A DNA stretch of 64,000 nt from Acidimicrobiaceae bacterium (lineage in GTDB: Bacteria; Actinomycetota; Acidimicrobiia; Acidimicrobiales; RAAP-2), in assembly GCA_003133325.1 (NCBI GenBank), contig PKXA01000111.1:1-64000 (forward strand), given 5' to 3'. Shown one piece after another: positions 16,898 to 60,122 of the stretch. Within the stretch, counting starts at the first letter, position 1, and each line of letters starts with the position of its first letter. A program made the position numbers and the translations under genes. A model generated the notes under the pieces. The model saw only the letters and a program-made list of their open reading frames with translations. It had not been told where the DNA came from and did not search any database.

Positions 16898-17106
16898 GGA
16901 GCGAGGGTACCCCTCCGACCACCAAGGATGACGAGTGGACTCCTGAGTGGCCGAGCATTGACTCCCGTGATGCCGGGGGCGTGGCAACGGTGCGGAATGC
17001 CCCACCCGCCAGGCGATGGACGTGTAATCGGTTGCTCGCCATAGACAGCGCCGGCCATCTGATGTCTGCCGAGGCATGTCATCGGGCCGGCGTTGGGGGC
17101 AAGGCG

Positions 17107-17118
17107 TAAACTGGACGT
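17107..17118 (+). promoter_or_regulatory. leaderless -10 of the AHSA1 gene
   Basis: TAAACT at 17107-17112 ends 6 nt before the GTG start at 17119. This is the spacing expected when transcription begins at the start codon. No ribosome-binding site is present. Confidence 0.5.
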
Positions 17119-17583
17119 GTGTATTCGACTCAGAGCACTCGTCATGTTGATGCCCCGCGTTCGGCTGTCTATCGGGCGCTCCTCGATGCCGGTGCGATCG
17201 CGAAGTGGAGGGTGCCGACCGGCATGACCAGCCAGGTGCATGAGTTCGACGGCCGCGAAGGTGGCTCGTTCCGTATCTCGCTCACGTACGATGCGCCGAC
17301 CGGGACCGGCAAGTCGGCTGCTCATACCGACACGTACCATGGCCACTTCGTGAACCTTGTGCCGAACGAGCAAGTGGTCGAAGTGCTTGAGTTCGAGACA
17401 ACAGATCCCGAACTACGCGGCGAGATGACGATAACTACAACGCTTGCTGATGCAGACGGCGGCACCGATGTCCTCGTCGTGCACGAAGGTATACCCAATA
17501 GCGTGCGCACCATCGACAACGAGACCGGCACGCGGATGGCACTTGCGAATCTCGCCGCGCTCGTGGAGGCGAATCAGTTTTGA
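17119..17583 (+). CDS. SRPBCC/AHSA1 family protein
   Basis: A 154-residue START-like ligand-binding fold. It opens with STRHVDAPRSAVYRALLD, continues with the family block W-x-P-x-G-M and the FRISLTY strand, and ends with the helix GTRMALANLAALVEA. Such proteins bind hydrophobic ligands or act with Hsp90-like partners; no specific role can be given. The stop codon TGA is made from the first bases of the conserved right end of the neighbouring IS200/IS605-type element, so the last residues (NQF) may be a product of the insertion. Confidence 0.85.
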   Translation: MYSTQSTRHVDAPRSAVYRALLDAGAIAKWRVPTGMTSQVHEFDGREGGSFRISLTYDAPTGTGKSAAHTDTYHGHFVNLVPNEQVVEVLEFETTDPELRGEMTITTTLADADGGTDVLVVHEGIPNSVRTIDNETGTRMALANLAALVEANQF

Positions 17584-17631
17584 CATCCTCCCCACGGATA
17601 AATCCGGGGGATTCCTGATTGCCAGCGGTGG
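17581..17631 (-). mobile_element. IS200/IS605-type right end downstream of tnpB
   Basis: On the plus strand the end starts TGACATCCTCCCC, which matches the common right-end signature of IS605/IS1341-type elements (GGGGAGGATGTCA on the tnpB strand). A hairpin at 17590-17610 has stems CCCC/GGGG and CGGA/TCCG with a bulged A and loop TAAA. It lies about 20 bp after the tnpB stop, where the guide (omega) RNA 3' end and scaffold would lie. By family analogy, the bases just outside it at 17580 and below would supply the guide. Confidence 0.75.
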
Positions 17632-18867
17632 TCATGCCAACACCAGCTCTCGGGTGGTTGACGCCTCATCGGGTCGCTGTGCCTGATCCACCCCGATGGG
17701 TGAGGCGTGCGATGTCCCTCCACGTCCTGTGACTGCCTGTCCAGCAGCAAGGATATTGATAGCTGCGTTCACGTCGGCGTTGGCGGTGAACCCGCAGGCT
17801 CGGCATCGGAAGATCGCTTGGCTCTCGCGATTATCCTTAGCCGTGTACCCGCAAACCGAGCAACGCTGTGACGTGTACGCAGGATTGACGGCCACCAGCT
17901 CCACAAGATCGGTGGCGTGGGTGGCCTTGTCCGTGAGACGCTGACGGAACAGCGCCCAGGATTGAGCATGGATCGAACGGTTGAGACCGGCTTTCTGGCG
18001 GACGTTCCGGCCAGGGTTGGCAACCGTGCCATTGGCGGATCGAACCATGTTCTTGACCCGGAGGTCCTCGATGACGACGAGGTCGAAGTCCCGTACCAGT
18101 TGGGTCGTGGTCGTCTCGATCCAGTTCCTCCGGCGGTCCGCCTCTTTGGCTGCCAGCCTGGCCATGCACCGCCTGGTGTATGCCCTTCGGTTGGAGCCCT
18201 TCTGCTGTCGGGAGAGCTGACGCTGCAACCGGTACTTCCGTTGGGCCTCACCGGCAGAGAGCAGGGTCGGAATCCAAAGGTGGACCCCATCGGAGGTGGT
18301 GATGGAGGCAGCCACCCCCATGTCCAGGCCGACCTCAGCCCCACTGGCCTTCCGTTGGAACGCCGGAGACGGGGTGGTGAAGCTGACGTGCCACCGGCCG
18401 GACCTGTCCAGAGTGACTCGGGCGGAGGTGGCTGCCGTTATCTCGGCCCACTGTCGAGAGATGCGGAACCGAACCCATCCAGCCTTGGGGACCTGCACTT
18501 CGCCCCACCGACCGTTGATCTGCCGTACTTGGAGGTCTCGGACGTAGAAGCCCTCGTGGATTCCGGCCCTTCGCCAGGTGGGGTGGGCAAAGTGGTGGGG
18601 ACTCTTCCACCAGTTCTGGAAGGCCCGGTCGAGGTCCCGGAGGGCGGCCTGTTGGACAGACGAAGATCCCTTGCCGAGCCAGGTCTCCCGGCGTGCCTCG
18701 GCTAACTCCTTTTGTTGGGACACGGTGGTGATTCGAGCCGCCCGGTGACGGCACCAGAGGTTTCTCTGTTCCAGACCGAGGTTGTACACGAATCGGGAAT
18801 CTGAGCAATGCTTCGCCAACCAGGTGGCGGACTCGGGGTCCGGGCAAAGGCGCTGGCGGATGCTCAT
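17632..18867 (-). CDS. tnpB: TnpB, RNA-guided nuclease of an IS200/IS605-type element
   Basis: 411 residues counting from the ATG at 18867. The RuvC-like triad is complete: Asp182 in GLDMGVA, Glu267 in VIEDLRVKNM and Asp365 in DVNAAINIL. A zinc ribbon Cys336/Cys339-Cys355/Cys358 lies between the last two motifs. TnpB proteins use an omega RNA from the element's right end to cut matching DNA, favouring retention of the transposon. No TnpA transposase is present, so this is an IS1341-like solo copy or has lost its partner. The longer reading frame upstream runs into the neighbouring recombinase-like gene and is not used. Confidence 0.92.
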   Translation of the reverse strand: MSIRQRLCPDPESATWLAKHCSDSRFVYNLGLEQRNLWCRHRAARITTVSQQKELAEARRETWLGKGSSSVQQAALRDLDRAFQNWWKSPHHFAHPTWRRAGIHEGFYVRDLQVRQINGRWGEVQVPKAGWVRFRISRQWAEITAATSARVTLDRSGRWHVSFTTPSPAFQRKASGAEVGLDMGVAASITTSDGVHLWIPTLLSAGEAQRKYRLQRQLSRQQKGSNRRAYTRRCMARLAAKEADRRRNWIETTTTQLVRDFDLVVIEDLRVKNMVRSANGTVANPGRNVRQKAGLNRSIHAQSWALFRQRLTDKATHATDLVELVAVNPAYTSQRCSVCGYTAKDNRESQAIFRCRACGFTANADVNAAINILAAGQAVTGRGGTSHASPIGVDQAQRPDEASTTRELVLA

Positions 18868-18877
18868 GACTGGCGGA

Positions 18878-18890
18878 CTTGCATATTCGA
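18878..18890. repeat. left inverted repeat of the recombinase-trio element
   Basis: CTTGCATATTCGA is the reverse complement of TCGAATATGCA (11 bp) at 21964-21974, and of AATATGCAAG (10 bp) at 21983-21992. It lies 14 bp beyond the end of the last operon gene and 11 bp before the tnpB start. Confidence 0.5.
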
Positions 18891-18904
18891 CTGGTGCGTA
18901 TTGG

Positions 18905-20365
18905 TCAGGTCGACCTGGATGTTTGTCGTGCTCGGATCCCCGCATAGGCACCCCAGTCGGTGCCAAGTTCGGAAGCGTGTCTTGCTGTCGTCTGGGGGCT
19001 GAAACCCATGGCCTTCGCCACCACGGGCCCAGGAACCTCTCGGACCAGCTGTCGGAGGGCGGCTTGACGATCGTTCCGGGTGACGCCGATGGCCGTCATG
19101 CGGCTACTCATGTGGGACCCACTGATGTGGTGGCCGGGAAAGTGACTCGGAAACAGCCATGGCGAACTCTCGTTGGCGGCGGTGAGCATGTGCGGACGGT
19201 GAGCGACGAGAGCTGCGACCAGTTTTCCGATCGCCTCGGGCAAGACGACCGGGTCATCGCCGAGGCGTAGCCGGATCTCGCTCTCGTATTCGTCGATGTC
19301 GTCGATGCGCAGAGCGCACACTCTGGTGATGGGCTGGGCGAGGAGCGTTATGAGGCACCCCGCCACCCGGTCGCTGAGGACGATCTTGTCGTCGACGAGG
19401 AGGCGGGCGAGGAGCTCCAACCGGTGGCTCTCCGGCGCGGCGGCGGTGCTGGGCCGCTGGCTGACGGGGACCACAAGTCGAGGGCAGCGTTGGTGACGCA
19501 TGGCCCACCGGAGGAAGTCGATGCCGCTGACAGCGTTGGTGGTCGTAGCGAACCAGGCATCCAGGTCGCCTTGCGTGCACTTGGCAAGGGTGACGTCACG
19601 TTCCCTCAACCACAACAGCAGACGGAGGCCACTGTTGGTGCGACTTCGGGCCGCGTAGGTCATCGAGGCCGTGAGTGGCCCTGTTGCGGCACGAGCCGCC
19701 AGCTCTCGGTGATGGCGCCATCGCAGATAGACACGAATCGTCTGACAGTCGGCTGGATCATCGATGGTGGCGAGCCGGTGGGTCTCCCATCGCTCGAAGG
19801 CCATGAGGCATACGTCCCCATCAGGGAGGCAACCGTGGGTCATGAGAAGTTCTCGCAGGTACTCTCGTCCGTTGCCGGGGTCGAAGATGTCGACACCGGC
19901 GTGGGTGAGCGCCACCTCTCCGGTGGCAAGGGCGGCGAGCCGTTCACGCACGGGAGCCTCGTTGAGCCAGTTCAGACCTCGTCGTGGCTCGGGCATCGAA
20001 ACCAAGGCGTCGAAGAGTGAAGCCAAACCCGGTGCGACCTGCCCTGCTCCGTCATCGAGGAAGCCGGCCAGCCGCTTCTTCAGCGAACAGCGCTGGCACG
20101 TGTGAGCATAGAAGGCCTCGTCTTCGATCCCACAGGTCGTGCATCGAAATGACGTCGGGATCCCCGCGCAGTCCACGCAGATCGGCTGTCCACTGGCGTC
20201 GAATCCCGGGAGCGCCCTGGTGGTTCCACATCCGGGGCAGCGGCCATGGCGGAGCACTCCATGGCGCACGCAGCTCGCACAGACGAACCCCTCGGGCCAG
20301 TTCTGTCCGATGATCATGGCCCGCCGACAACGGCAGCAGGCTTTGGCCGGACGCCGGTAGCTCAC
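18905..20365 (-). CDS. Cys-rich zinc-finger protein with degenerate tyrosine-recombinase-like C-terminus
   Basis: 486 residues from a GTG at 20365 that overlaps the XRE stop (GTGA). The longer reading frame upstream is the antisense-free shadow of the XRE gene and is not used. The first 95 residues hold six Cys pairs (10-13, 29-32, 43-46, 63-66, 75-78, 90-93), which would bind several zinc ions. The C-terminal 200 residues resemble a phage-integrase catalytic domain: ITRVCALRIDDID matches the box I Arg region and GFSPQTTARHA matches the LGHSSxxTTxxY region. His replaces Gly-His, and the expected catalytic Tyr is His (ARHA). It is probably a non-catalytic partner or target-selection subunit of the upstream recombinase; I know of no described function. 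Confidence 0.7.
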   Translation of the reverse strand: MSYRRPAKACCRCRRAMIIGQNWPEGFVCASCVRHGVLRHGRCPGCGTTRALPGFDASGQPICVDCAGIPTSFRCTTCGIEDEAFYAHTCQRCSLKKRLAGFLDDGAGQVAPGLASLFDALVSMPEPRRGLNWLNEAPVRERLAALATGEVALTHAGVDIFDPGNGREYLRELLMTHGCLPDGDVCLMAFERWETHRLATIDDPADCQTIRVYLRWRHHRELAARAATGPLTASMTYAARSRTNSGLRLLLWLRERDVTLAKCTQGDLDAWFATTTNAVSGIDFLRWAMRHQRCPRLVVPVSQRPSTAAAPESHRLELLARLLVDDKIVLSDRVAGCLITLLAQPITRVCALRIDDIDEYESEIRLRLGDDPVVLPEAIGKLVAALVAHRPHMLTAANESSPWLFPSHFPGHHISGSHMSSRMTAIGVTRNDRQAALRQLVREVPGPVVAKAMGFSPQTTARHASELGTDWGAYAGIRARQTSRST

Positions 20366-20694
20366 TGGGTTCCGGGGCCGACCCGTGCCCGCTTCGGACG
20401 GCCGATCGTCGCCAGGTCGGCTGCAGTCCTTGCCGGTCGATCCTCGTCGCCGTTCGTGGTGATGGTGCCGATCTCGATGAGCTCGTCGGGTGTGCACGAG
20501 AAGATGTCGCACAGTGCGGCCAGCGTGCGAAGGGAGAGGCGCTCGGGCACCTTGGCGACCAGCCGGTAGACCTGGGCCGCCGATAGCGTCACGCCACGCT
20601 GGGCGAGGAGCGGGCCGAGGTCGCTCGTCTTCCAGAGGCCGTGGGTGGCCATGACCTGGCGCAGCTTCCAGGTGTAACCAACCGATCGGCTCAT
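20362..20694 (-). CDS. XRE/Cro-type helix-turn-helix protein
   Basis: A 110-residue protein. Residues about 10-75 form a Cro/C1-type domain (LGPLLAQRGVTLSAAQVYRLVAK ... SLRTLAALCDIFSCTPDELIEI), followed by a basic Arg/Lys-rich tail ending PKRARVGPGTQ. The ATG at 20694 overlaps the recombinase stop (ATGA) and its own stop overlaps the next start (GTGA). Being between two recombinase-like genes, it may repress the operon or act as a directionality or accessory DNA-binding factor; both are inference. Confidence 0.85.
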   Translation of the reverse strand: MSRSVGYTWKLRQVMATHGLWKTSDLGPLLAQRGVTLSAAQVYRLVAKVPERLSLRTLAALCDIFSCTPDELIEIGTITTNGDEDRPARTAADLATIGRPKRARVGPGTQ

Positions 20695-21788
20695 CCGTTT
20701 CCCCCTTTGTCACGGGTGTTCTCGATGCTCTTGTCGAGCGAAGCCCGAAGCATGCGGGTGCGGTAGTCCGAGGAGACCGACGTGTAAATTGCCGTTGTCG
20801 ACGAGTGGCTGTGGCCGACTTGTTGTTGGACGAAGAGAGCGTCATACCCGTCTTCGATGGCGTGGGTGACGTGCGAGTGCCTCAAGCAGTGTGGGCTCAG
20901 CCCGGCGGGAAGTCCGGCTGTCCTCGCCGCGGTGGCGAACGCTGCGTTCAACCGGTCCTTGCTCACCCGGGGTCCGCGTTCGGATGGCCACAGGCCGCCC
21001 TCGCCGGGGAGGCGAATCTGTGGCCACACATCGTCTACCCACTCGCTGAGGACATCGACCGACCATTCCGAGGTTGTCAGGACGCCGCGGTGCCGGGGCG
21101 ATGACCCGTTGGTCGCCTTGCCGAAGCGCACCTGACAGACGCCGAAGGCACCGAACTCGGGGGCATGTGGATTGGGCCCGAAGTCCGACACTTCCAACAT
21201 CACCACCTCTTGGCGGCGCAGCCCCCAGCCGTAGGTGACCTTCAGCATGGTGGCGTCACGGAACGCCGGCATCCAACCCTTGCGACTGTTGGCCCGGACG
21301 GCATCCACCCGGTCGTCGGCCGCGTCAAACAGCGCCTGGCACTCCACCCGGGAAAGCGGGCGGCGAGCCGGATGACCTTCGTACTCGGTGGCGTGGACGG
21401 CGAGGTTCTCGTCGGTACAGATCTGGATCGGATGAGAGCCGAACCGCTCGAGACATGCCCGGTCCCAGCCGTAGGCGGGATCGCACACGTAGGCGAGAAA
21501 CAAGCGAACGGACACTTCATAGGAACGCACCGTCGAGTGCGCCCTCTTCGCCGCCCGCAAGGACGCCGCCCAGTTTTCGAACTCGGTCGGCGTCCAATCC
21601 CAGGGGAACGACCCGGCGTGCTCCTGGAAACGTCGGACGATGCGGGCACCATTGTTGATGGTGCCGAAGGCCAGATTCCGGCTCAGTTGCTGAGTCCGCC
21701 AGCCGTCGAGCAGCGCCTCGAACATCTCGACCTCCGGGCGCCAGGACTGCTCATCATCGACTGCACGCAGGTGGGCCAGCGACGTCAT
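20691..21788 (-). CDS. tyrosine-type site-specific recombinase/integrase
   Basis: 365 residues from the ATG at 21788 (a TTG at 21806 is the alternative). The N-terminal SAM-like core-binding domain (about 20-135) is followed by a catalytic domain with a full set: Arg191 in GLRRQEV, Lys224 in VRFGKAT, His300 and Arg303 in HCLRH, His326 in VGHSHSSTT and nucleophile Tyr335 in AIYT. It would cut and join DNA through a 3'-phosphotyrosine. It leads the three-gene operon and is the only member with an intact active site. No adjacent tRNA supplies an attachment site. Confidence 0.93.
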   Translation of the reverse strand: MTSLAHLRAVDDEQSWRPEVEMFEALLDGWRTQQLSRNLAFGTINNGARIVRRFQEHAGSFPWDWTPTEFENWAASLRAAKRAHSTVRSYEVSVRLFLAYVCDPAYGWDRACLERFGSHPIQICTDENLAVHATEYEGHPARRPLSRVECQALFDAADDRVDAVRANSRKGWMPAFRDATMLKVTYGWGLRRQEVVMLEVSDFGPNPHAPEFGAFGVCQVRFGKATNGSSPRHRGVLTTSEWSVDVLSEWVDDVWPQIRLPGEGGLWPSERGPRVSKDRLNAAFATAARTAGLPAGLSPHCLRHSHVTHAIEDGYDALFVQQQVGHSHSSTTAIYTSVSSDYRTRMLRASLDKSIENTRDKGGNG

Positions 21789-21963
21789 CTCAGCCCGGAA
21801 TTCCAATGGATCACCCGTCTCTCATAGAAAGACTGATCCAATCATCTGTTGCGATCAGAGTGGCGGACCCCCTGGTCAACATCGTATTCATCGGGGCGGC
21901 GGATCCGAGAGTACGCATGCCTCAATCATCAATGCCCAGCTGAGGGGCCATTCTTCGGGTGAA

Positions 21964-21992
21964 TCGAATATGCATCAAATGCAATATGCAAG
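21964..21992. repeat. right inverted repeats of the recombinase-trio element
   Basis: Two related copies sit in tandem: TCGAATATGCA (21964-21974) and AATATGCAAG (21983-21992). Both are inverted relative to the single copy at 18878-18890. Tandem core sites on one side are common in integrase arm/core arrangements. TGCAT-CAA-ATGCA (21971-21983) within the block is itself palindromic. Confidence 0.5.
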
Positions 21993-22053
21993 ATTTGGTT
22001 TCATCGTACGGATCTGGTGTGACAGCGTCGGGGCTGACCCCGAACTCGCTCGA

Positions 22054-22074
22054 CCCCACGGATGAATCCGGGGG
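22054..22074. repeat. second IS605-type hairpin, near-identical to the tnpB right end
   Basis: A 21-nt hairpin matches the one at 17590-17610 at 20 of 21 positions, in the same orientation and with the same bulged A: stems CCCC/GGGG and CGGA/TCCG, loop TGAA instead of TAAA. The flanking TGACATCC motif is absent. It could be the left-end hairpin of the TnpB element, a remnant of another copy, or a borrowed terminator for the crotonase gene, which ends 54 bp away. Confidence 0.6.
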
Positions 22075-22127
22075 CTTGCGCTCGCAGCTCGGTCAGTCGT
22101 AACGGCCGCCCGTTGCCGCTCGTGGCG

Positions 22128-22937
22128 CTACCGCCCCACCCAGACCGGAGGTCGTTTCTCCATGAAGGCCCGGGGCCCTTCCTTGGCATCCTCGCTCCCG
22201 AAGACCTCCGCGGCCAACTCCGACTCGATCCGGTACGCATCTTTCATGTCGGTCGCCAGTCCCCTGAGGACTGACTCCTTGGTCTTTCGAATGGCCAACG
22301 GGCCATTGGCGGTGATCCGTCGGGCATAGTCGTCGGCTCGCCCCATCAGCTGTTCGGCCGTGGTGACCTCGTTCAGCAGGCCCATCTCGAATGCCTTGTC
22401 GGCCCCGATCCGGTCGGCGCACAGCAAGAACTCCATCGCCGCCGGATAGGGGATCTGGCGCGGGAGGCGAACCGTGGTCCCCCCCCCGGCGAACAACCCT
22501 CGCTTGGGCTCGAGCACACCGAAGGTGGCGGAATCCACCGCGATCCGGATGTCACAACCGCCTAGCATCTCCATGCCGCCGGCCACGCATGTCCCGTTGA
22601 CGGCGGCGATGATCGGTTTGTAGAGCTTGACGCCTCGCAGCACCGCTCGCATGCCATCGTCGAGGCGGTAGCCGTCGATGGTACTGACCTCGCCGGAAGC
22701 GATCTTCTTTTGGTGCTCGGTTATCTGGGGGATGTAGGTCTTCAGATCGGCGCCGACCAGAAACGAGTCTTTGACACCGGTGATCACCGCCACCCATGCA
22801 TTCTCGTCCTCACCGAAACGATCCCACGCACTGCGGAGCTGGAAGAAATGCTCCATGTCCATGGCGTTCTTCGCTTCGGGGCGGTTGATGGTGATGAGGG
22901 CGACGTGATGGTCGTCGACCTGGTAGTGGATGGGCAC
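22128..22937 (-). CDS. enoyl-CoA hydratase/isomerase family protein
   Basis: A 269-residue crotonase. The oxyanion-hole segments are FLVGADLK and GTCVAGGMEMLGGCD, and the acidic block GVLEPKRGLFAGGGTTVRLPR carries the general-acid/base Glu region. The GTG at 22937 begins 2 nt after the amidohydrolase stop and puts the first strand (VALITINRPEAKNAM) at the usual place; the longer frame is a shadow of the upstream gene. It is the last gene of a four-gene operon (ACAD, thiolase-like, amidohydrolase, crotonase) and probably hydrates an unsaturated acyl-CoA in the same pathway. Confidence 0.92.
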   Translation of the reverse strand: MPIHYQVDDHHVALITINRPEAKNAMDMEHFFQLRSAWDRFGEDENAWVAVITGVKDSFLVGADLKTYIPQITEHQKKIASGEVSTIDGYRLDDGMRAVLRGVKLYKPIIAAVNGTCVAGGMEMLGGCDIRIAVDSATFGVLEPKRGLFAGGGTTVRLPRQIPYPAAMEFLLCADRIGADKAFEMGLLNEVTTAEQLMGRADDYARRITANGPLAIRKTKESVLRGLATDMKDAYRIESELAAEVFGSEDAKEGPRAFMEKRPPVWVGR

Positions 22938-22939
22938 CG

Positions 22940-24238
22940 TCAGTCGTCGGCGGAATTCTTGGTGGCGAAGTTCTTCAGGTCGGTGGCGGTGGTCCCCTTG
23001 GGCCGAGCCTTGCCCGTCCGGGCCATCAAGCTGACATCGACGTCGCCGGCCTCCGCCCGCAACGCCCCGACCGTGCACTGCTCCCGGGGACGAAGCGCAA
23101 ACGGGTCGAACTTGAAATGGCGCATGGCGTTGAGGTGGGTGATCTTGTTGACCTCGTCATCGGGCACGTCGGCCAGGTATTTCATGGCCATCTCCGGAGC
23201 GTGCGGCCAGGTGGAGTCGGAGTGCGGGTAGTCGCACTCCCAGGTGATGTTGTCCATGTTCAGGTAGTGGCGGTTGGCCACCCCGAAGGCATCATCGATG
23301 AAACAGGTGATGACTCGTTCCTTGAACAGCTGGCTGGGGAGCAGGTCCCCGAAGTCCTGACCGGTCCAGGCGTGGTGGTGCTCGTAGACGTAGTCGACCC
23401 GTTCCAACAGGTAGGGGATCCAACCGATCCCTCCTTCGGACAGGGCAATCCGGAGGTCGGGGAATTTCCGCAGCACCGGCGACCACAGCAGGTCGGCGGC
23501 CGCCTGCACGATGTTCATGGGTTGGAGGGAGATGAGCACGTCGATCGGGGCCTCGACCGAGGTGATGACCAGCTGGGACGAGGACCCGATATGCATGCAG
23601 ACGACGGTGCCCTCGTCGGAGCAGGCCTGCCAGAACGGGTCCCAGCTGCTGGAATGCAGGCTGGGCCAGCCCAGCTTCTCCGGGTTCTCCGAGAAGGTCA
23701 CCGCGTGGCACCCCTTTTGGGCCACCCGCCGGACTTCGGCGGCGGCCAACTCGGCATCCCAGATGGCGGGCAGGGACAACGGGATGAACCGTCCCGGTGC
23801 CGCGCCGCACCATCCTTCGATGTGCCAGTCGTTGTAGGCCTGGATCATGGCCAGGGCCACGTCCTTGTCCTCGGTGCGGGCGAACAGCTGCCCACAGAAT
23901 TGCGGGAAGGAGGGAAAGTTCATCGACCCGAGCACCCCGTTGGCGTTCATGTCCCGGATCCGCTCGTGGACGTCGAAGCACCCGGGTCGCATGTCGTCGA
24001 GGGAGGTGGGCTCGATGCCGTACTCCTCGGGCGGGCGGCCGACCACCGCGTTGAGCCCGATGTTGGGCATCTCGTTCCCGTCGTACGACCAGACGTCGGT
24101 GCCGTCCGGCTTCCGAATGAGCCGGGGCGCCAGATCCTGGTACTTGGCCGGGAGCCGACCGTCGAACATGTCGGGTGGCTCGACGATATGGTCGTCCACG
24201 CTCACCAGAATCAGATCCTCGGCACGCATCTGCACCAT
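22940..24238 (-). CDS. amidohydrolase family protein (ACMSD/amidohydrolase 2 type)
   Basis: A 432-residue TIM-barrel metal enzyme. It opens with SVDDHIVEPPDMF (the usual D-x-H is D-D-H), has CMHIGSS near residue 210, and ends its barrel with ITWECDYPHSDSTWP, the metal-binding Asp/His region. Relatives decarboxylate or hydrolyse ring or carboxylate substrates without a CoA thioester, which makes it notable inside a beta-oxidation operon. AAGGGG touches the first ATG, so the second ATG (24229) is a possible start. It is followed closely by the crotonase gene. Confidence 0.88.
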   Translation of the reverse strand: MVQMRAEDLILVSVDDHIVEPPDMFDGRLPAKYQDLAPRLIRKPDGTDVWSYDGNEMPNIGLNAVVGRPPEEYGIEPTSLDDMRPGCFDVHERIRDMNANGVLGSMNFPSFPQFCGQLFARTEDKDVALAMIQAYNDWHIEGWCGAAPGRFIPLSLPAIWDAELAAAEVRRVAQKGCHAVTFSENPEKLGWPSLHSSSWDPFWQACSDEGTVVCMHIGSSSQLVITSVEAPIDVLISLQPMNIVQAAADLLWSPVLRKFPDLRIALSEGGIGWIPYLLERVDYVYEHHHAWTGQDFGDLLPSQLFKERVITCFIDDAFGVANRHYLNMDNITWECDYPHSDSTWPHAPEMAMKYLADVPDDEVNKITHLNAMRHFKFDPFALRPREQCTVGALRAEAGDVDVSLMARTGKARPKGTTATDLKNFATKNSADD

Positions 24239-24318
24239 CCCCTTGTGATCCGCGGCCAGACCAGTGAAGCCTGACGCCGACGTGATGCAGACTAGCCAGA
24301 GGCAGGCCAGGTTGCGAT

Positions 24319-25884
24319 TCAGAGGCTGGCCGAAGTGCCACCCTGTCCGTCAGGGGAGACACGCACGGTGCGCCCGATCAGCTCTTCGGACTCGGCAGTT
24401 CCCAATCCGGCCGGATCGGTCATTCGGGCATAGCACCGGGCAACAGCGGTACCCGGGTCGGGGTCGGTGGCCTGGCCTGGCGACGCCACGTCGCAGACCA
24501 ACGCCGCCCATTCCGGTGCACCGTCACGTCCGTGGATCACCGAGTAGGTGGCCACCCGGGCAGGCCCGTCGATCGAGTCCACAATCGGCAGCTGTTCCAT
24601 GGCTCCCTGTGCCACCACCGCGTCGTCGGGCGGGACGAGAGGTCCCGGCGTGGTCGAATAGGCGGCGAAGACGTGCTTGTTCATGTGCATCCCGACGCCG
24701 CTGACCATTCCCATCGCTCCGGGGTCGGCTCGAAGGGTCTCGACCATGGTGGCCAACGAATGGGTGAGGTAGTTGCTGCCGGGGCCCCCGTGGTAGGCCA
24801 GCCCGCCGGTGACGGTGATCGGGCGATCGGGCACTACGCCCGGATCGGCACTTCGGGCCGAGTTCGAATCGATGCCGAGAGCGTCGAGTGCGAACTCGAC
24901 CGAGCTGGCGAAGCACGAATACAGGTCGAAGTAGGCGACATCGTCCACTGCGCACCGGGCCCCGGCCAGGGCCGCCGCGCTCGCCGCCTCCATGGCCCCC
25001 GAGCGCCACAGGTCCGCACGCTGGGCCACCGCCGGCGGGTCCTCGGCATATCCCCATCCCCGGAGGTACACCCGTCGTTCCGCCGGGACCCCGAGCGAGT
25101 CGGCGGTTGCATCGCTGGCCACCAGCACCGCCGCCGCCATGTCCACATCCATGATGGCGGTCATCAATTTGGAGTACGGATAGCCGACCATCCGGTTCTG
25201 CTCGGTCGGACCGATGATCTCCTCCGCGCCACGAACGGTGGGGAACCAGGCGTGGGGGTTGGCTGCTGCCACCGCCGTCATCGGCGAGAGGAGTTCACCG
25301 AGTGACTGCCGATACTCCTCCAGACCGGCACCGAGATGGGCCCGGTGGGCATTCTCGAAGAGAGCGAAGGTGAGCCAGGCCTCGAAGATGTTGTGGGCCA
25401 CCTCGCCCGGATGGAAGGGAACATCGAAGGGGAAGGGGCGCCGCTCGCCGGGGGGGAAGCTCCATTCCGGCTTTCGCCCTTCCTTGGCCAGCCGTCGCTT
25501 GGTGGCCAAGGCCTCGCCGCCCACCACCAGGGCCAGGTCCAGATCACCACGAAGGATGTCCCGGGCGGCATTGGACACGATGGTCTGGGGGACGTTGCCC
25601 CCGATCCCCGAGTAGTTGGCCACCTTGGGATCGGCACCCAGCCGCTCGGCCAGACGGATGCCCGGATCGTCGTACTGCCAGGCCTGGCAGTAGACGACAT
25701 CGACCCGTTCGACCCGTTCGACGGTGCCGGGGTGGCCGGTGTCGGCATCGGCCAGCCTGGCCACCTCCTCCCACATGTCCAATGGCTCGGGAGCACCGTG
25801 GGGGCCGCAGTCCTCCGGGCGCCAGGTCCGGCGCCCCACCCCGATCAGACAGGGTGCACGCCGGTCACGATTGGTGGGGGACAT
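24319..25884 (-). CDS. thiolase-like protein with extra C-terminal domain (SCP-x/TLP1-like)
   Basis: A 521-residue protein. The thiolase fold covers about residues 1-400, with family blocks such as SRVVGG-like ALVVGGEAL and the late His/Gly block GGLAYHGGPGSNYLTHSL. A C-terminal domain of about 110 residues follows (VATYSVIHGRDGAPEWAALVCD), resembling the OB-fold of mycobacterial thiolase-like protein type 1. Where thiolases carry the nucleophile Cys, this protein reads SGIGGNVPQTIVSNAA, so ordinary thiolysis is unlikely. Family members of this kind have no settled reaction. It starts 9 bp after the ACAD stop and is in the same operon. Confidence 0.8.
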   Translation of the reverse strand: MSPTNRDRRAPCLIGVGRRTWRPEDCGPHGAPEPLDMWEEVARLADADTGHPGTVERVERVDVVYCQAWQYDDPGIRLAERLGADPKVANYSGIGGNVPQTIVSNAARDILRGDLDLALVVGGEALATKRRLAKEGRKPEWSFPPGERRPFPFDVPFHPGEVAHNIFEAWLTFALFENAHRAHLGAGLEEYRQSLGELLSPMTAVAAANPHAWFPTVRGAEEIIGPTEQNRMVGYPYSKLMTAIMDVDMAAAVLVASDATADSLGVPAERRVYLRGWGYAEDPPAVAQRADLWRSGAMEAASAAALAGARCAVDDVAYFDLYSCFASSVEFALDALGIDSNSARSADPGVVPDRPITVTGGLAYHGGPGSNYLTHSLATMVETLRADPGAMGMVSGVGMHMNKHVFAAYSTTPGPLVPPDDAVVAQGAMEQLPIVDSIDGPARVATYSVIHGRDGAPEWAALVCDVASPGQATDPDPGTAVARCYARMTDPAGLGTAESEELIGRTVRVSPDGQGGTSASL

Positions 25885-25893
25885 GTCGACCGG

Positions 25894-27102
25894 TCAGGGC
25901 CGTCGGGTTTGACCGGGCAGTTTGATGGCCCGATCGGCGATGATGTTCTTCTGTACCTCGGTGGATCCTCCCCCGATGGTCGAGTAGCGCTGGAACGAGT
26001 AGAGCCGGGTCCATTTGCCCCGGTCCACCGCGTCGGGGCCGCCCCGGGCCAGGAGTCCGGCCGGGCCCAGGAGATCCACCGCCAACTCGGCCAGGGTCTG
26101 GGCCAGCATCGACCACTGGAGCTTCGAGAACGGGACTTCGGGCCAGTTCTTCTCACCCCTCATGACCTTGCTCAGCGCCCGATAGACGAGGAGGCGGGTC
26201 AACTCGATCTCCGTCCAGGCCCGGGCCAGTCGATCGGCGATGCCGGGGTCGGCCAGCGCGTCCGGATTGACGGATCGCGCCATCTCCACCATGGCTCGCA
26301 GATCGGCGGCCAGGCTGGTGATCTGGCCGGCGATGCCCACCCGCTCGAAGCCGAGGGTGCTCATGGCCACCATCCAACCCTCACCCTCTCCTCCCAACCG
26401 GCAGTCGACGGGGACATGGACGTCGCGGAAGTAGACCTCGTTGAACATCTCCTCACCGGACATGTCCCGGATCGGCCGGCGTTCCACGCCGGGGGACTCG
26501 AGGTCGACGATGAACGCGGTGATCCCCTCGTGTTTGGCCCCGCGTCCGATGGCAGTCGGATCGGTGCGGAACAGGAACAGCCCCCACTTGGCCAGGTGGG
26601 CCGTCGAGATCCAGATCTTCTGTCCGTTCACCACGTAATGGTCACCGTCGAGGATGGCCAAGGTGCGCAGGTTGGCCAGGTCGTTGCCGGCATCGGGTTC
26701 GGAGAACCCCTGGCACCAGTGATCATCGGCATTGATGATGGATGGGAGCCAGCGATTCTTCTGCTCCTCGGTTCCCCATTGGATGAGCATGGGGCCGATC
26801 TGCCAGATGCCGTTGGTGTTGAACATCCCCGGCGTCCGGTACTCGGCCATCAGCTCTGAGTAGATGAGGCGCTGGACGGCCGTCGTCTCCCTGCCGCCCC
26901 ACTCGGTGGACCAGTGGACCGCGGCCCAGCCTCCCTCGTTCATGAGGCGCTGCCATGCCTTTCGCCGCTCCTGGGAGGGCACGCCCGCCGCCCGCTGGTC
27001 TTCATCCTCGGTGTCGGCCAGAAACTGTTGCAGATGCTCGTCGAGCCAGTTTCGCAACTCGTCGCGGAACGCTTCGTCCTCTGCATCCAGGGAGAAATCC
27101 AC
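25894..27102 (-). CDS. acyl-CoA dehydrogenase, FAD-binding alpha-type
   Basis: 402 residues from a GTG at 27102, which gives the normal opening VDFSLDAEDEAFRDELR; the longer frame starts at TTG. Typical blocks: GFSEPDAGNDLANL, VNGQKIWIST, GGEGEGWMVAM, and the C-terminal FAD/catalytic loop IGGGSTEVQKNIIADR. It would introduce the alpha-beta double bond of an acyl-CoA. Its size and motifs match the alpha partner of the heteromeric ACADs used in steroid side-chain breakdown. A matching beta-type gene lies about 1.2 kb away at 28267, divergent and separated by a transporter. Confidence 0.92.
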   Translation of the reverse strand: MDFSLDAEDEAFRDELRNWLDEHLQQFLADTEDEDQRAAGVPSQERRKAWQRLMNEGGWAAVHWSTEWGGRETTAVQRLIYSELMAEYRTPGMFNTNGIWQIGPMLIQWGTEEQKNRWLPSIINADDHWCQGFSEPDAGNDLANLRTLAILDGDHYVVNGQKIWISTAHLAKWGLFLFRTDPTAIGRGAKHEGITAFIVDLESPGVERRPIRDMSGEEMFNEVYFRDVHVPVDCRLGGEGEGWMVAMSTLGFERVGIAGQITSLAADLRAMVEMARSVNPDALADPGIADRLARAWTEIELTRLLVYRALSKVMRGEKNWPEVPFSKLQWSMLAQTLAELAVDLLGPAGLLARGGPDAVDRGKWTRLYSFQRYSTIGGGSTEVQKNIIADRAIKLPGQTRRP

Positions 27103-27132
27103 GGGGCGAAGCCTAGCCAACTACCTCGGGGG

Positions 27133-28080
27133 TCACGAGGTGGGACGGGGTGGGATCGGGTTCGGGGGAGTCGAGGTATGAAGGCGTCGGGAGTGGAAGC
27201 GGGGGGTGAGCAGGTCGGCCCGGGCGCTGCCCTCCCCTTTCAGGACGGCGAGCATCGAAGATTGTGACAGCGAGATCCCCCCGATGAAGAGCACGACAAG
27301 GGAGAGGGCCTCGAGGGGCCCGCGGGCACCGGCCGTCTGCAGGTCGTCACCGAACAGGGCAATGCCGATGGTGATGCTGACCAGTGGGTCGACCAGCACC
27401 AGCGCGGCCTGGGAGGCGCCGATGGGCCCGGCGTGGAATGCATTCTGGGTGAGAAAGACCGACAACAATCCGAAGATCGCCAGACCGTAGGTCTCCCAGT
27501 GCGCAAAGATACCCAACCAGTTCTGGGCGACGTAGTGGGAGACGACCTTGGTCAACGCCGCGGTGAAGGCGAAGCCGATGGCCGCCGACGTGCCGAACAT
27601 CGATGCCCGCCACCATCTCGGTCCGCGAAGGGCCAACATCACGGTGATCACCATTCCGGCCACGCAGGACCCACCCACCACCGCCCATCCGAGATTTCCG
27701 GGGAGTCGGTCCCCCCCGATGGGAGCGGCGAACACCAGAAACCCGGCCAGCCCGGCCGACACCAAGGCGACTCCCACCCACTCGCGGGGTCCCGCCCGGT
27801 AGCCGAACCAGGTGGAGAGGATGAAGACCAGAAACAACAGCTCGGTGACCAGAATGGGCTGGACCTGGCTGAGCCGACCGAAGTGCAAGGCCAGCGCCTG
27901 CAAGAGGAACGAGCCGATCATCAGGGCGAATCCGGCCAGCCACACGCCGCGGCGCAAGGCGTGGGCGAGCAGGCTCAGCTTGAGCCTGTGCTCCTCCTTG
28001 GCGTCCTCCACGCCCATGCGCTGGAGCACACTGATGAGTGCATTCGAAAAAGCCGCCCCGATGGCGAGGAAGAAGACCAT
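27133..28080 (-). CDS. DMT superfamily (EamA-like) transporter
   Basis: A 315-residue protein with about nine or ten hydrophobic segments in two repeats. The second repeat ends with HAGPIGASQAALVLVDPLVSITIGIALFG-type residues, seen in DMT permeases. The C-terminal 35 residues are basic and proline-rich. The ATG at 28080 is preceded by TACACT with 13 nt between, so any 5' leader would be very short. The substrate is unknown. It sits between the two halves of a likely ACAD pair. Confidence 0.85.
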   Translation of the reverse strand: MVFFLAIGAAFSNALISVLQRMGVEDAKEEHRLKLSLLAHALRRGVWLAGFALMIGSFLLQALALHFGRLSQVQPILVTELLFLVFILSTWFGYRAGPREWVGVALVSAGLAGFLVFAAPIGGDRLPGNLGWAVVGGSCVAGMVITVMLALRGPRWWRASMFGTSAAIGFAFTAALTKVVSHYVAQNWLGIFAHWETYGLAIFGLLSVFLTQNAFHAGPIGASQAALVLVDPLVSITIGIALFGDDLQTAGARGPLEALSLVVLFIGGISLSQSSMLAVLKGEGSARADLLTPRFHSRRLHTSTPPNPIPPRPTS

Positions 28081-28266
28081 AGGAATTGGATTCAGTGTAG
28101 GAGGAGACCCCCGATCGGTGCGGATCCTGGGTAGTCCGCGGCCCGGTCCCCCCTACATGTGGGGATGAGGGCCCGTCTACACTGACGGAGCTAGCACGGT
28201 CGCGTCACCGTCGGTTCGACGTGAGGACGGCCGCCCGATCCGACGGAAGGCTACGGCAGCGGAACG

Positions 28267-29361
28267 ATGGACTTCACCTACGACGCCGAACAAGAGGCGC
28301 TTCGGGATGTCGCCCGGCAGGCCATGGACCGCGAGGTCGGGGGCGCGCGATTGCGACAGATGGCCGATGACCCCGATGGGATCGATGCCGAGCTGTGGAC
28401 GACACTGGTCGGTCTGGGTTGGACAGGGCTGGTGATACCCGAAGCCTTCGGCGGTGCCGGGGGCGGCCTCTCGGATTTGAGCATTGTGCTCAACGAGACC
28501 GGGCGGGTCCCGTTGCCCGGCCCCTTCTTCTCCTCGGCGGTCATGGCCACCCTGGCGGCCAAGGCCCTCGGAGCCGATTCTCTCCTGGCGGATCTCTCCG
28601 CCGGGCGAACCCGGGGAACGGTGGCCCTCCACGAGTTCGGTCACGGAGATCCACTGGGTACCGTGCGAACCCGGGCCCGGCGAAGGGGTGCCACCTGGGT
28701 GCTCGACGGGGTGAAACCGTTGGTCCTCGATGGCCACACCGCCGACTGGGCAATCGTGGTCGCCGGCACAGAGGAGGGCCGCCGTGCCTTTCTGGTGGAG
28801 AAGCCGGATGGGGAACCGGTTCCGGCTCTCGACCCGACCCGCAAGGTCGCCCGTCTGGAGTTCCATGATCGCCCGTGCGAACCGATCGGCCCGGGAGGCA
28901 ACCAGGCTTCGATCTGGCACAGGATCATGGACGACGCCTCGGTGGCATTGGCAGCCGAAACCCTGGGGACCGCGGACCGGGCGTTGGCCTTGGCCATCGA
29001 TTACACCAAGGAGCGGGTGGTGTTCGATCAACCGGTGGCATCGTTTCAGGTGGTGAAGCACAAGATTGTCGACATGTTCCATCAGATCGAAATGGCCCGG
29101 GTGGCCGTGCAGTTCGCCGCCTGGGCATCCGATGCCGAGGCCCCGGAGCGCCAACGGGCCGCGGCCATGGCGGCGGCCTACACCAGTGAGGCGGCGGTGA
29201 AGGTCACCGGAGAAGCCATCCAGTTGCACGGTGGCGTGGGCTTCACCTGGGCATGTGACGCTCACTTTCTGTTCAAGCGGGCCAAGCAGAACGACGTGCT
29301 GATCGGTGGCCACGCCGGCCAGCGGAAGCGCCTGGCCACCATGCTGATCGACACTGCATGA
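28267..29361 (+). CDS. acyl-CoA dehydrogenase family protein, beta-type
   Basis: A 364-residue protein. The N-terminal ACAD helices are followed by a weak middle domain and the C-terminal blocks VVFDQPVASFQVVKHKIVDM and GGVGFTWACDAHFLFKRAK. In the other beta-type ACADs here the last block reads TWEHDxHL; here Glu-His is replaced by Ala-Cys. A catalytic or FAD-contacting role for this loop may therefore be lost, leaving a structural partner. It is preceded by a divergent promoter region of about 185 bp. The end of the gene is duplicated 1.25 kb downstream. Confidence 0.9.
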   Translation: MDFTYDAEQEALRDVARQAMDREVGGARLRQMADDPDGIDAELWTTLVGLGWTGLVIPEAFGGAGGGLSDLSIVLNETGRVPLPGPFFSSAVMATLAAKALGADSLLADLSAGRTRGTVALHEFGHGDPLGTVRTRARRRGATWVLDGVKPLVLDGHTADWAIVVAGTEEGRRAFLVEKPDGEPVPALDPTRKVARLEFHDRPCEPIGPGGNQASIWHRIMDDASVALAAETLGTADRALALAIDYTKERVVFDQPVASFQVVKHKIVDMFHQIEMARVAVQFAAWASDAEAPERQRAAAMAAAYTSEAAVKVTGEAIQLHGGVGFTWACDAHFLFKRAKQNDVLIGGHAGQRKRLATMLIDTA

Positions 29362-29366
29362 CCGGA
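29339..29366 (+). repeat. 28-bp direct repeat, copy 1 (end of ACAD gene)
   Basis: Covers the last seven codons and the stop of the ACAD gene. It matches 30593-30620 at 27 of 28 positions (T/C at one site). The 1.2-kb stretch between the copies carries only the repeat lipoprotein gene. Confidence 0.85.
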
Positions 29367-29453
29367 ACCTCGGATCGTCTCGTGGGGTACCTTCGAACGA
29401 CTCCCTGAGTTCTCCGGGCCAGACGGTGCCGACGTGACCGGGGCGAAGGGTTG

Positions 29454-30488
29454 ATGGACGTGGTCCGTCTTTGCGCCTCCAAGGGGCCTCGGCTCACGAC
29501 GAAGACCCGAGTTGGGGCGATCGGCGCGGCTGTGGCCATGATCTTCATGTCCGGATGCGGCGGGGCTACCAGCCCGGTCCAAGGCGGAGCGACCTGGTCG
29601 ACTCCGGTTCGGGTCGAACCCAATGGCCAGTCGTCCAGTTCATCGTCCGTGTACTCGGTGTCGTGTCCTTCGAGCACGCTCTGCGTTGCCGTAGATGAAT
29701 ACGGCTCTGCACTCATTTGGCGCGGTGACGAGTGGTCCACGCCTCAGCCTGTCGGGGCGGGTGGGACCCTCACGTCTGTCTCTTGTCCGTCGACCACGTA
29801 CTGCGTTGCCGTGACGGCTGGCGGCAGGGCCGTGACCTACAACGGTCAGTCGTGGTCACTGCCTGTTTCGATCGGGCCTGCGGCCACCTACGAGGTTTCG
29901 TGTCCCACTGTCACCTTCTGCGCCACCGTGGGTGCAAGCGGCACCGCCGGCGCCGCGAGCACTGTCGCAACGTTCGACGGGCACTCATGGTCGACGCAGC
30001 AAACCTCGAGCACCGGAGCGGTCGACGACCGCCTGATGGATGTGTCGTGTGCGACACAGAGTTTCTGCGTTGCCGTCAACCTCGATGGACATACCCTCAT
30101 CTTCGACGGAACGAAATGGTTGCCGGGTCAGAGCATCGGTCCCCAGGGACTGACGTCGGTCTCGTGTCCCTCGACCACGTTCTGCATGGCGGTGGTCACG
30201 TCCGGTGCATCCACGACGTTCCAGGGGAAGAGTTGGTCGACTCAGTTGGCGATTCCCGGGTTCCGGGCGGCGTTTGCCCGATCGGTATCGTGCGGGTCCA
30301 CCACACGGTGTACGGCCATGGGCCTTAGCGGCCAGAGTGCACGCTGGCAGGACGGACGATGGTCGCAGCCCGTGCTCGTCTTCCCAGGTGGGTTCTTGGC
30401 CACCGTGGCGGTGTCGTGCTCGCCGTCAAACACCTGTGTTGCCGTCAACAGCAAAGGTAACGCCGCAACTTCGATGCAGACAGCTTGA
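29454..30488 (+). CDS. secreted lipoprotein with seven Cys-containing repeats (beta-propeller-like)
   Basis: 344 residues from the ATG at 29454, with GAAGGG just upstream. A basic N-terminus and hydrophobic stretch end in FMSGCGG, a lipobox. The mature part has seven copies of a roughly 45-residue unit whose core is V-S-C-P-S-x-x-x-C-x-A-V, each followed by a G-x-x-x-x-x-x-G-x-x-W-S strand pair. Seven units with paired Cys suggest a seven-bladed propeller with a disulfide in every blade. Such proteins may bind glycans or proteins at the surface. The function is unknown. It lies alone between 28-bp direct repeats. Confidence 0.85.
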   Translation: MDVVRLCASKGPRLTTKTRVGAIGAAVAMIFMSGCGGATSPVQGGATWSTPVRVEPNGQSSSSSSVYSVSCPSSTLCVAVDEYGSALIWRGDEWSTPQPVGAGGTLTSVSCPSTTYCVAVTAGGRAVTYNGQSWSLPVSIGPAATYEVSCPTVTFCATVGASGTAGAASTVATFDGHSWSTQQTSSTGAVDDRLMDVSCATQSFCVAVNLDGHTLIFDGTKWLPGQSIGPQGLTSVSCPSTTFCMAVVTSGASTTFQGKSWSTQLAIPGFRAAFARSVSCGSTTRCTAMGLSGQSARWQDGRWSQPVLVFPGGFLATVAVSCSPSNTCVAVNSKGNAATSMQTA

Positions 30489-30592
30489 ACTGTTCGGGAG
30501 CCGGTGGCGACTCCGTGAGTGTGACCTCTCGGGCGTCACCGTTCATTCTTCACACTGGAATCACAGGGGAGGCTACCGGTAGTGCCTTCACG

Positions 30593-30620
30593 CCATGCTG
30601 ATCGACACCGCATGACCGGA
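30593..30620 (+). repeat. 28-bp direct repeat, copy 2
   Basis: Repeats the 3' end of the ACAD gene (29339-29366) with one mismatch, outside any reading frame. It is consistent with insertion of the 1.2-kb lipoprotein segment with duplication or recreation of its target. Confidence 0.85.
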
Positions 30621-30660
30621 CCGCGTCCTGGCTCGACTACCTGAACCGATGATCCGGTTG

Positions 30661-32547
30661 CTAGTGGCAGTGGCCAGATGACGGGGGGACGTCGAGAGCG
30701 GGGTTGGCATCGAAGAAGCCCACGGGGACGAGGTGGAACCCGCAGTACTCCACCGGCATGACCGGCCAGTCCTCCGGTCGGGGGATATGAGTGACACCAA
30801 ACGTGTGCCAGGCGACGATGTCGGTACCGGTGAGCGGTCGGTCGGCGGCCGTCCACGCCGGTAATCCGTCGCCACCGGGATGCTGGTTGGGATAGTCGCC
30901 GGCAGCCCGGCGCTCGCCGGGATCGAACGGGGTGACCCAGAGGTTGTAGCGGGCGAAGCCGGCCCGTTGCCCGACGCTGGATTCGGGGTGGGCGAGGAGA
31001 GTGGGCGTGGAGCCCGGGACCAGCTTGTAGGCGACGGGTTCGCCCAGGCCGTTCAGGGCCTCGGGGTTGACGAACTTCCAGAAGCGGCTGGCCGCCGGGT
31101 CGACGTTTCGCCGGGCGGCCAGTTCGGAGTCGAGTCGGGTGGCCACGGGGATGAAGGCGTTGGCCCACGGATTGGCTTCTCCGACCGGCAGCGCTTCGGT
31201 GGAGATCTCGTACGCCTCGTTGACGGCTCCGTCCACTTCGAAGTCGAGGCGCGCACAGAAGAGGTGTTGGTGAACGGGAGCGCCAAGCCCCGGGGCCACC
31301 ACTGTCGCATAGGGGGTGAGATCGTCCGGGTTGAGGGCCTGGGTGGAGAGGATGCCCGTCAACTTGACCTCGAATTGGATGGTCCCGTCGAGGTAGAAGT
31401 ACCAATAGAAGCCGTATTCGTAGTTGCCCACGGTGGCGATGGAGGACACCACCAGTCGTCGGGACCGCCTCACCTCGGTGCGTCCCCCGTGCAGATCCTG
31501 GTGTTTCCATAGGATCCCGTAGTCCTCCTCGTGGATGCAGATGGCGTTCTCCACGGAATACGGCCTTCCCTGCTCATTGGCCAGGGTGGCGTCGAGGTAG
31601 GAGATCACTCCCAGGCAGTCACAGCCCAAGGTGAGGGAATTGGCCATCCGGCCCAGTCCCCACTCGCCGACATCGAAGGCGTTCTTCCAACCGTGCACGG
31701 GTCCGGGATCACCGTAGGGGACCACCATCTCAGAGATGGAGGCCCGGTGCAGAATCGGTCGGAGTCGGCCACCGTCCTCATAGCCGACCGAGTGCAGCAC
31801 CAGCCCGTCGAGGGGATCCATCGACACCCGCAATGCCCATCGTTGCCAGCGGACCAAGTTGATGTCGATGGTGAGGCTGGCTCCCTCCGGTTGGATGATG
31901 TCCAGGGGAAGCAGGTCGGTACGTAGTGGTTGGTTGTCTTCGGGGTAGTAGCTGCCGGTTGCGGTCGGGACTGGGACGACTCCGTGGTCGAGAACTTCGA
32001 GGACCTCACCGCGAGCCGCGTCAACGGTGGCCACCACCCCTTCGATCGGGCGGGCATAGCCATTGTCGGTCGGGCTCTCCCGGTAGTAGGACAGGCATCG
32101 GGTGATACGCCGGTCCTGTTCGATGTCACGACCGAAATTGCCGGTGGGCCACGGGTCGATCTGCACCTTGTCGAAGTCGGTGATGCCCCGTCGTCGGATG
32201 GCCTGTTGCCAGGCGGGGTCCTCCTTGAGGGCGACGATGGAGCGGAGGGAGTCCTCGAACAGGAGGGCGGGGCGCACCCCTGACCGGACTTCCCACGAGA
32301 CGATGTCCTCCGCCGGAAGGGCGACAATGGCCTCGACGACCGTGCTCTCGGGCCCGGGCACGATCACCAGGCGAACCCTCCGCTCGATCGGGTCACCCGG
32401 CCGGTACGAGGACAGGGCCTCTTTGGAAGGACCGTCGAGGGTGATGGTGGCGAAGCGGGCGGCCTCGTCGAGCCGGCCAATGGCCCGCACCGTCGTTACC
32501 GCCCTCCGGATCTCGTCGGGGGTGAGGGGTTCGAGCGGGTGGGTCAC
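30661..32547 (-). CDS. copper amine oxidase (TPQ-dependent)
   Basis: A 628-residue enzyme oxidising primary amines to aldehydes with release of NH3 and H2O2. Tyr376 in GNYEYG is the precursor of the topaquinone cofactor, Asp292 in NAFDVGEWGLG is the catalytic base, and His426, His428 (VHQHLF) and His587 (GVTHIPRPEDWP) are the copper ligands. Length and order of motifs are normal for the family. There is no signal peptide, so it is cytosolic like the Arthrobacter-type enzymes. A GTG start lies 22 bp after the tetR stop; amines such as tyramine or phenethylamine are likely substrates but unproven. Confidence 0.95.
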   Translation of the reverse strand: MTHPLEPLTPDEIRRAVTTVRAIGRLDEAARFATITLDGPSKEALSSYRPGDPIERRVRLVIVPGPESTVVEAIVALPAEDIVSWEVRSGVRPALLFEDSLRSIVALKEDPAWQQAIRRRGITDFDKVQIDPWPTGNFGRDIEQDRRITRCLSYYRESPTDNGYARPIEGVVATVDAARGEVLEVLDHGVVPVPTATGSYYPEDNQPLRTDLLPLDIIQPEGASLTIDINLVRWQRWALRVSMDPLDGLVLHSVGYEDGGRLRPILHRASISEMVVPYGDPGPVHGWKNAFDVGEWGLGRMANSLTLGCDCLGVISYLDATLANEQGRPYSVENAICIHEEDYGILWKHQDLHGGRTEVRRSRRLVVSSIATVGNYEYGFYWYFYLDGTIQFEVKLTGILSTQALNPDDLTPYATVVAPGLGAPVHQHLFCARLDFEVDGAVNEAYEISTEALPVGEANPWANAFIPVATRLDSELAARRNVDPAASRFWKFVNPEALNGLGEPVAYKLVPGSTPTLLAHPESSVGQRAGFARYNLWVTPFDPGERRAAGDYPNQHPGGDGLPAWTAADRPLTGTDIVAWHTFGVTHIPRPEDWPVMPVEYCGFHLVPVGFFDANPALDVPPSSGHCH

Positions 32548-59888: not shown

Positions 59889-60122
59889 CCGGCGTCAGGC
59901 GACGTTTGCCCCGTTTGTGTCGAGCCGATACGCCGGGGCTGGCGCCCGATCCATCGGGCTGCGTGCTCGGGAACCTGGATCGATCAACGCCTTCCGCTGC
60001 ACAGACGGAACGATCGGTAACGGTCGTGAGGAGCAAGCACTCTTCGGATCGGGCCGCGGACAGCGCGACCCGAAGCGATCGGGGCCAGGGAGCTGCGCTC
60101 TTGCGGGGCCGACATTCGGGGA

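Follow-up and report, generated by a model that had tools for sequence, protein, structure and literature searches.

Mobile insertion cassettes (MICs), such as MIC231, carry a passenger gene between insertion sequence (IS) ends and contain no transposase gene. Site-specific integrative elements carry a recombinase gene, and where they integrate at the 3' end of a gene, that end is rebuilt. The ISL3-family element Tn7546 has 11-bp ends (GGGTCTTCGGA) and an 8-bp target duplication (PMC9782665). Here we compare these systems with a lipoprotein gene inserted behind an acyl-CoA dehydrogenase-family gene (ACAD) in the genome of an Acidimicrobiaceae bacterium. Like a MIC, the insert places a passenger gene next to IS-end sequence, with no recognised transposase inside. 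It differs in having one clear end, found only in a relative (G001) and degenerate in the sequence under study, in its weak right end, and in its 28-bp target duplication, compared with 8 bp for ISL3 (PMC9782665). With ISL3 elements such as Tn7546 it shares a related end motif, seen on the left side of the G001 version, but it has neither a transposase nor an 8-bp duplication. The likeness to site-specific integration at a gene 3' end lies in a gene end rebuilt by a short repeated stretch and in an unoccupied one-copy site in relatives (locus L117 is empty, with a 36-bp spacer). Unlike such elements, the insert consists of a single gene with an IS end, holds no recognised recombinase, and no second use of the site was found.

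The window, the whole stretch of 64,000 nucleotides that we analysed, is part of contig G000:C48 from a genome (G000) that is 96.55% complete. In it, an intact ACAD gene (28267–29361, plus strand; Pfam PF00441 and PF02771) faces a convergent gene for a copper (primary) amine oxidase (30661–32547, minus strand), recognised from its ORF and profile matches. An earlier note on this DNA had reported near-identical 28-bp copies of the ACAD end around a lipoprotein gene, and this proved correct: positions 29339–29366 and 30593–30620 (both plus strand) form a direct repeat with 27 of 28 matches and 1226 bp in between. By sequence comparison, the first copy comprises the last ACAD codons, the stop and CCGGA. 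The pair is the core of a 50-nt pair that is 82% alike without gaps. Elsewhere in the window, no position on either strand matches the 28-mer better than 18/28, so the pair is not a product of chance. Upstream of the second copy, a further 22 nt resemble ACAD weakly (14/22, a score reached at 47 of 63,978 plus-strand window positions, ACAD itself included), and the 5 nt adjoining the pair are alike at one position in five. The second copy carries variants of its own, with TTCAYG upstream. A scan of positions 17000–31000 with Rfam returned nothing at the gathering score.

The longest ORF between the two copies (29451/29454–30488, plus strand) encodes a protein of 344–345 aa with repeated SVSCPSTTFCVAV-like blocks and the residues MSGC, which we take to be a lipobox-like motif. 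The protein had no Pfam or NCBIfam match and belongs to no known family, while the five other ORFs overlapping the insert had no Pfam match. The insert was said in the earlier note to be free of transposase and integrase genes; in agreement with this, no transposase or recombinase was recognised by Pfam or NCBIfam in the lipoprotein, or by Pfam in the other five ORFs.

We next considered the site in related genomes. Two genomes of the same genus, G001 and G004 (L116/L024), could be compared there, together with the more distant L117 (JADMIJ010000005.1, MAG009), whose ACAD protein is 83% identical. The G001 and G004 contigs are taken to be JADGOI010000063.1 (Chersky.4_46) and PLZF01000047.1 (palsa_742), respectively. 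G001 has the lipoprotein gene and both 28-bp copies (25/28 alike), which are separated by 1349 bp, 123 bp more than in the window. Relatives with a single copy and no lipoprotein gene, proposed in the earlier note as a check, exist in G004 and L117. The one ACAD end of G004 joins directly the sequence found after the window's second copy (21/24 nt alike), and window positions 30571–30644 are 84% alike to positions 9097–9170 of L024. In L117, which has a single ACAD end, 36 bp separate the ACAD and amine oxidase stop codons. From these single-copy sites, the second copy has kept the ancestral setting, since it continues into the same downstream sequence as the G004 end, and the lipoprotein segment is the newcomer. 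Because the insert is present in G001 too, it predates the split of G000 and G001 and is no assembly error. Identities between these two genomes of 94.4% for ACAD, 94.7% for the insert and 96.4% for the amine oxidase gene agree with vertical descent since then. As judged from these alignments, the lipoprotein segment is a true insertion that is older than the G000/G001 split. Searches with this region gave no match in G002 (completeness 87%) and only a 40-nt match in G003 (completeness 64%).

The G004 site is occupied by a different insert. Starting 24 nt past the ACAD end, this insert (L024 9171–10567) contains an adenosine deaminase gene, has a short tail that we read as RCC1-like, and has an 80% identical DNA relative in another genus. 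We suspected a further copy of the ACAD end (TGATCGACAC..ATGACCGG) in this insert and rejected it, since the related gene in G048, a genome of another genus (80% identity), has a similar sequence upstream, and the stretch thus belongs to the deaminase locus. The deaminase insert is also carried by L121, a contig of doubtful origin that, after the insert, looks to us as if it ends in the start of a transposase gene. DNA that lands in a spacer between convergent genes does no harm, so insertions can recur there without a dedicated attachment site.

The 123 bp by which G001 exceeds the window lie at the left edge of the insert and begin with GGAACTTCGGATATGAGTGGGG. This edge carries a full 22-nt IS end in G001, of which the window retains only GGAACCTCGGAT (29364–29375, plus strand, degenerate by comparison with G001). 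We searched for the end motif as GGCACTTCGGATATGAGCGGGG, allowing up to three mismatches, with the pattern read backwards as a control. The motif occurred 18 times in three of the five genus genomes (nine times in G000, twice in G001 and seven times in G004) and the control not at all. One copy precedes an ISL3-family transposase gene in G000 (G000:C63; PF01610, NF033550). Elsewhere in that genome, a chrA (chromate transporter) gene (G000:C110:838-2213; L085) sits between paired ISL3-type inverted ends with no transposase; the two 22-nt ends of this cassette differ at one position and have a clean 8-bp target duplication (GGTAAACC). The first 83–96 nt of the G001 end are common to three other ends (G000:C36, G004:C70 and G004:C78). 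The motif beside the transposase gene, the chrA pair and the ends of Tn7546 together identify the left edge of the G001 insert, at the level of sequence, as an ISL3-type IS end.

All 18 IS ends were tested for a flanking 8-bp match, and only the chrA element had both a partner and an 8-bp duplication. A test for weaker partners covered 16 of the 18 ends, leaving out the second chrA end and one end near a contig edge. Because several ends lie near contig edges, some partners may have escaped this search. At one site shared by G000 and G004 (L080 5018 and L062 4469), the same ISL3-type end is present in both genomes, and about 130 bp, from 56 nt inside the end, are found in G004 only. An ISL3-type end in G004:C70 (L088 4946) lies near what we read as an apparent tRNA 3' end.

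The account towards which we lean, if not strongly, is a one-off illegitimate insertion of IS-end-linked DNA into the convergent spacer, in which 28 bp of the target were duplicated. A segment of about 1.25–1.38 kb, consisting of one lipoprotein gene with an ISL3-family IS end at its left edge, would have entered the short spacer between the two convergent genes in an ancestor shared by the window's organism and G001. We infer that it was joined illegitimately, either at a staggered break that was filled in or by aberrant transposition or recombination using CCGGA microhomology, and 28 bp of target would have been copied such that the ACAD gene stayed intact. The insert would then have been passed on vertically, and a later deletion between short repeats ending in GGAT may have removed about 120 bp from its left edge in the window. 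The deaminase gene taken up by the same spacer in G004 supports the spacer as an insertion spot. Both the window and G001 have A as the third base of the left end, which none of the other 17 ends has; such an A would result from a microhomology join with the ACAD flank CCGGA, or it could be a point mutation. Direct repeats flanking the other IS ends reach 12 nt at most, so the IS link of the 28-bp insertion may be secondary. The weak ACAD resemblance upstream of the second copy is not explained by an IS end and, like the weak match at the right end of the insert, counts against this account.

Unlikely, in our assessment, is that an ISL3 transposase moved the segment as a MIC-like passenger cassette, the right end and 8-bp duplication having later been blurred by mutation or recombination. 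Such transposition would fit the clear left end in G001 and the clean chrA cassette in the same genome. It would also fit the position of the best-scoring inward-facing right-end candidate within 4 kb (30573–30586, minus strand; score 9.8), which lies just 6 nt before the second 28-bp copy. This sequence is suggestive only, as an ISL3-end-like stretch of weak similarity, and outward-facing controls at other ends scored similarly or higher (up to 16.0 versus 9.8). Counting both strands, the score of the G001 version was reached at 7 of 127,974 window positions and that of the window's own version at 60 of 127,974. Moreover, an 8-bp duplication was not seen at the lipoprotein site (3/8 match), where the 28-bp repeat stands instead. 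With this weak right end and no 8-bp duplication seen, ordinary ISL3 transposition is not shown at the site. We know of no long target duplications, of about 28 bp, from ISL3 elements. The wider proposal that ISL3-type ends of this genus mobilise single genes without a transposase, some of the events leaving target-sparing duplications of about 28 bp, has in our view a slim chance of being right.

Site-specific integration at the ACAD 3' end, as put forward in the earlier note, would have a recombinase acting in trans join a small circle with a 28-bp att site to the gene, rebuilding its end. The near-identical repeat at the ACAD 3' end and the single-copy sites in relatives speak for it, as may a tyrosine recombinase gene 7.5 kb away (20691–21806), but nothing found ties that gene to this site. 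We searched for the 28 bp, with up to three mismatches, in the window's own genome, 172 family genomes and 397 order genomes. They were not found outside this locus in the own genome, and were present in three of the 172 family genomes (G000, G001 and G004), at this locus only. Two of the 397 genomes of the order sample had them, G000 and G408 (contig G408:C81). A degenerate 23-nt form of the sequence had no exact match in viral contigs, and the lipoprotein had no relative at E 1e-5 in plasmid and phage collections. Other inserts flanked by the same 28 bp, for which the earlier note had suggested looking, did not turn up in the family, order or viral searches. Further points against this proposal are the insert itself, with no recognised recombinase, and its left edge in G001, an IS end. 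One part of the earlier claim therefore stands, namely an insertion with a duplicated target, as seen from single-copy sites that have no lipoprotein gene; its site-specific part gives way to the confinement of the 28 bp to one locus, the lack of a recognised recombinase and the IS end in G001. The claim of a site-specific att site does not hold on present evidence, and we regard this mechanism as quite improbable.

The match in G408:C81 was considered as an independent lineage and rejected: it is near-identical to G004, yet binned in another family. The contig is the same as L121 (JADGOL010000273.1), with 100% identity over 3,028 bp. L121 is 98.8% identical to G004 from 2.3 kb on, while its first 2.3 kb and its last roughly 160 bp have no match to the compared G004 stretch; G408 is classed in another family. 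From these alignments, it is probably a misplaced or chimeric contig.

To place the site among other differences between the two genomes, we compared contigs G000:C48 and G004:C52 and scored the eight gaps listed for flanking repeats. The gap at the lipoprotein site had the highest valid score (55), followed by gap 17577–22094 (38), which has a 24-nt repeat and lies beside a TnpB gene. A gap near G004:C52:100000 gave a void score, as its flanks overlap (the alignments overlap by 20 nt), and the remaining gaps scored 13–22. The 24-nt repeat is hairpin-like (window 17590–17613 and 22054–22077, 22/24 alike) and flanks the TnpB (IS605 OrfB) gene at 17632–18966 together with two further ORFs, one of which is the tyrosine recombinase gene mentioned above, beside TnpB. 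More copies of it occur in G000 and G004 and, with two mismatches, in G001. From window position 59916 to beyond the window's end (G000:C48:64447), about 4.5 kb stand against 388 bp in G004.

Relatives of the lipoprotein at E ≤ 1e-20 are found in 36 of the 172 family genomes, including G000 and G001. The best relative outside the genus, in G048, is 63% identical, but its surroundings differ and the DNA similarity is confined to the gene. Among solved structures, there was no credible match (best E 0.034 over 49 residues), and a structure predicted from two sequences was of poor quality (mean pLDDT 44.5), with no more than a hint of repeated strands. The lipoprotein gene differs between G000 and G001 at 51 nucleotides, 29 of them third codon positions, compared with 51 of 61 in ACAD. 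On this basis, the lipoprotein gene appears to be under purifying selection that is looser than that on ACAD. We infer that it encodes a secreted, membrane-anchored repeat protein kept by selection.

By homologous import, the ACAD tail of a related strain, with a lipoprotein gene already upstream of it, would have recombined into the locus and left two tails of different origin. The second copy's own variants and the upstream TTCAYG would be consistent with this, and the 22 nt upstream could be a diverged ACAD tail. However, the 28 bp were not found in other family genomes. The surroundings of lipoprotein relatives were compared in one genome, G048, so a donor may exist elsewhere; we would give this origin little credence. 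A tandem duplication of the ACAD region in which the second copy decayed except for about its last 50 bp is highly improbable. The ungapped similarity upstream of the 28 bp (82% over 50 nt) would fit it, but the remainder of the insert has only short, weak ACAD matches: one of 57 nt (minus strand; E 0.004), one of 18 nt (plus strand; E 0.044) and a best tblastn E of 0.44. The ACAD end is single in both G004 and L117, a decaying copy would scarcely keep 27/28 next to a 5-nt stretch with one match, and a second full ACAD copy, which the earlier note had named as evidence against integration, was present at the site in none of the relatives examined.

With a one-off illegitimate insertion as our preferred account, this site seems to record ordinary genome churn, with an IS end that is informative, and not a new integration system. 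A lipoprotein gene of no known family reached a new place without harm to its neighbours, and the genus, an uncultured one of the actinobacteria, has ISL3-type ends next to single genes. Were the cassette reading true, genes for surface proteins and metal transport would be able to spread among these bacteria by means of IS ends.
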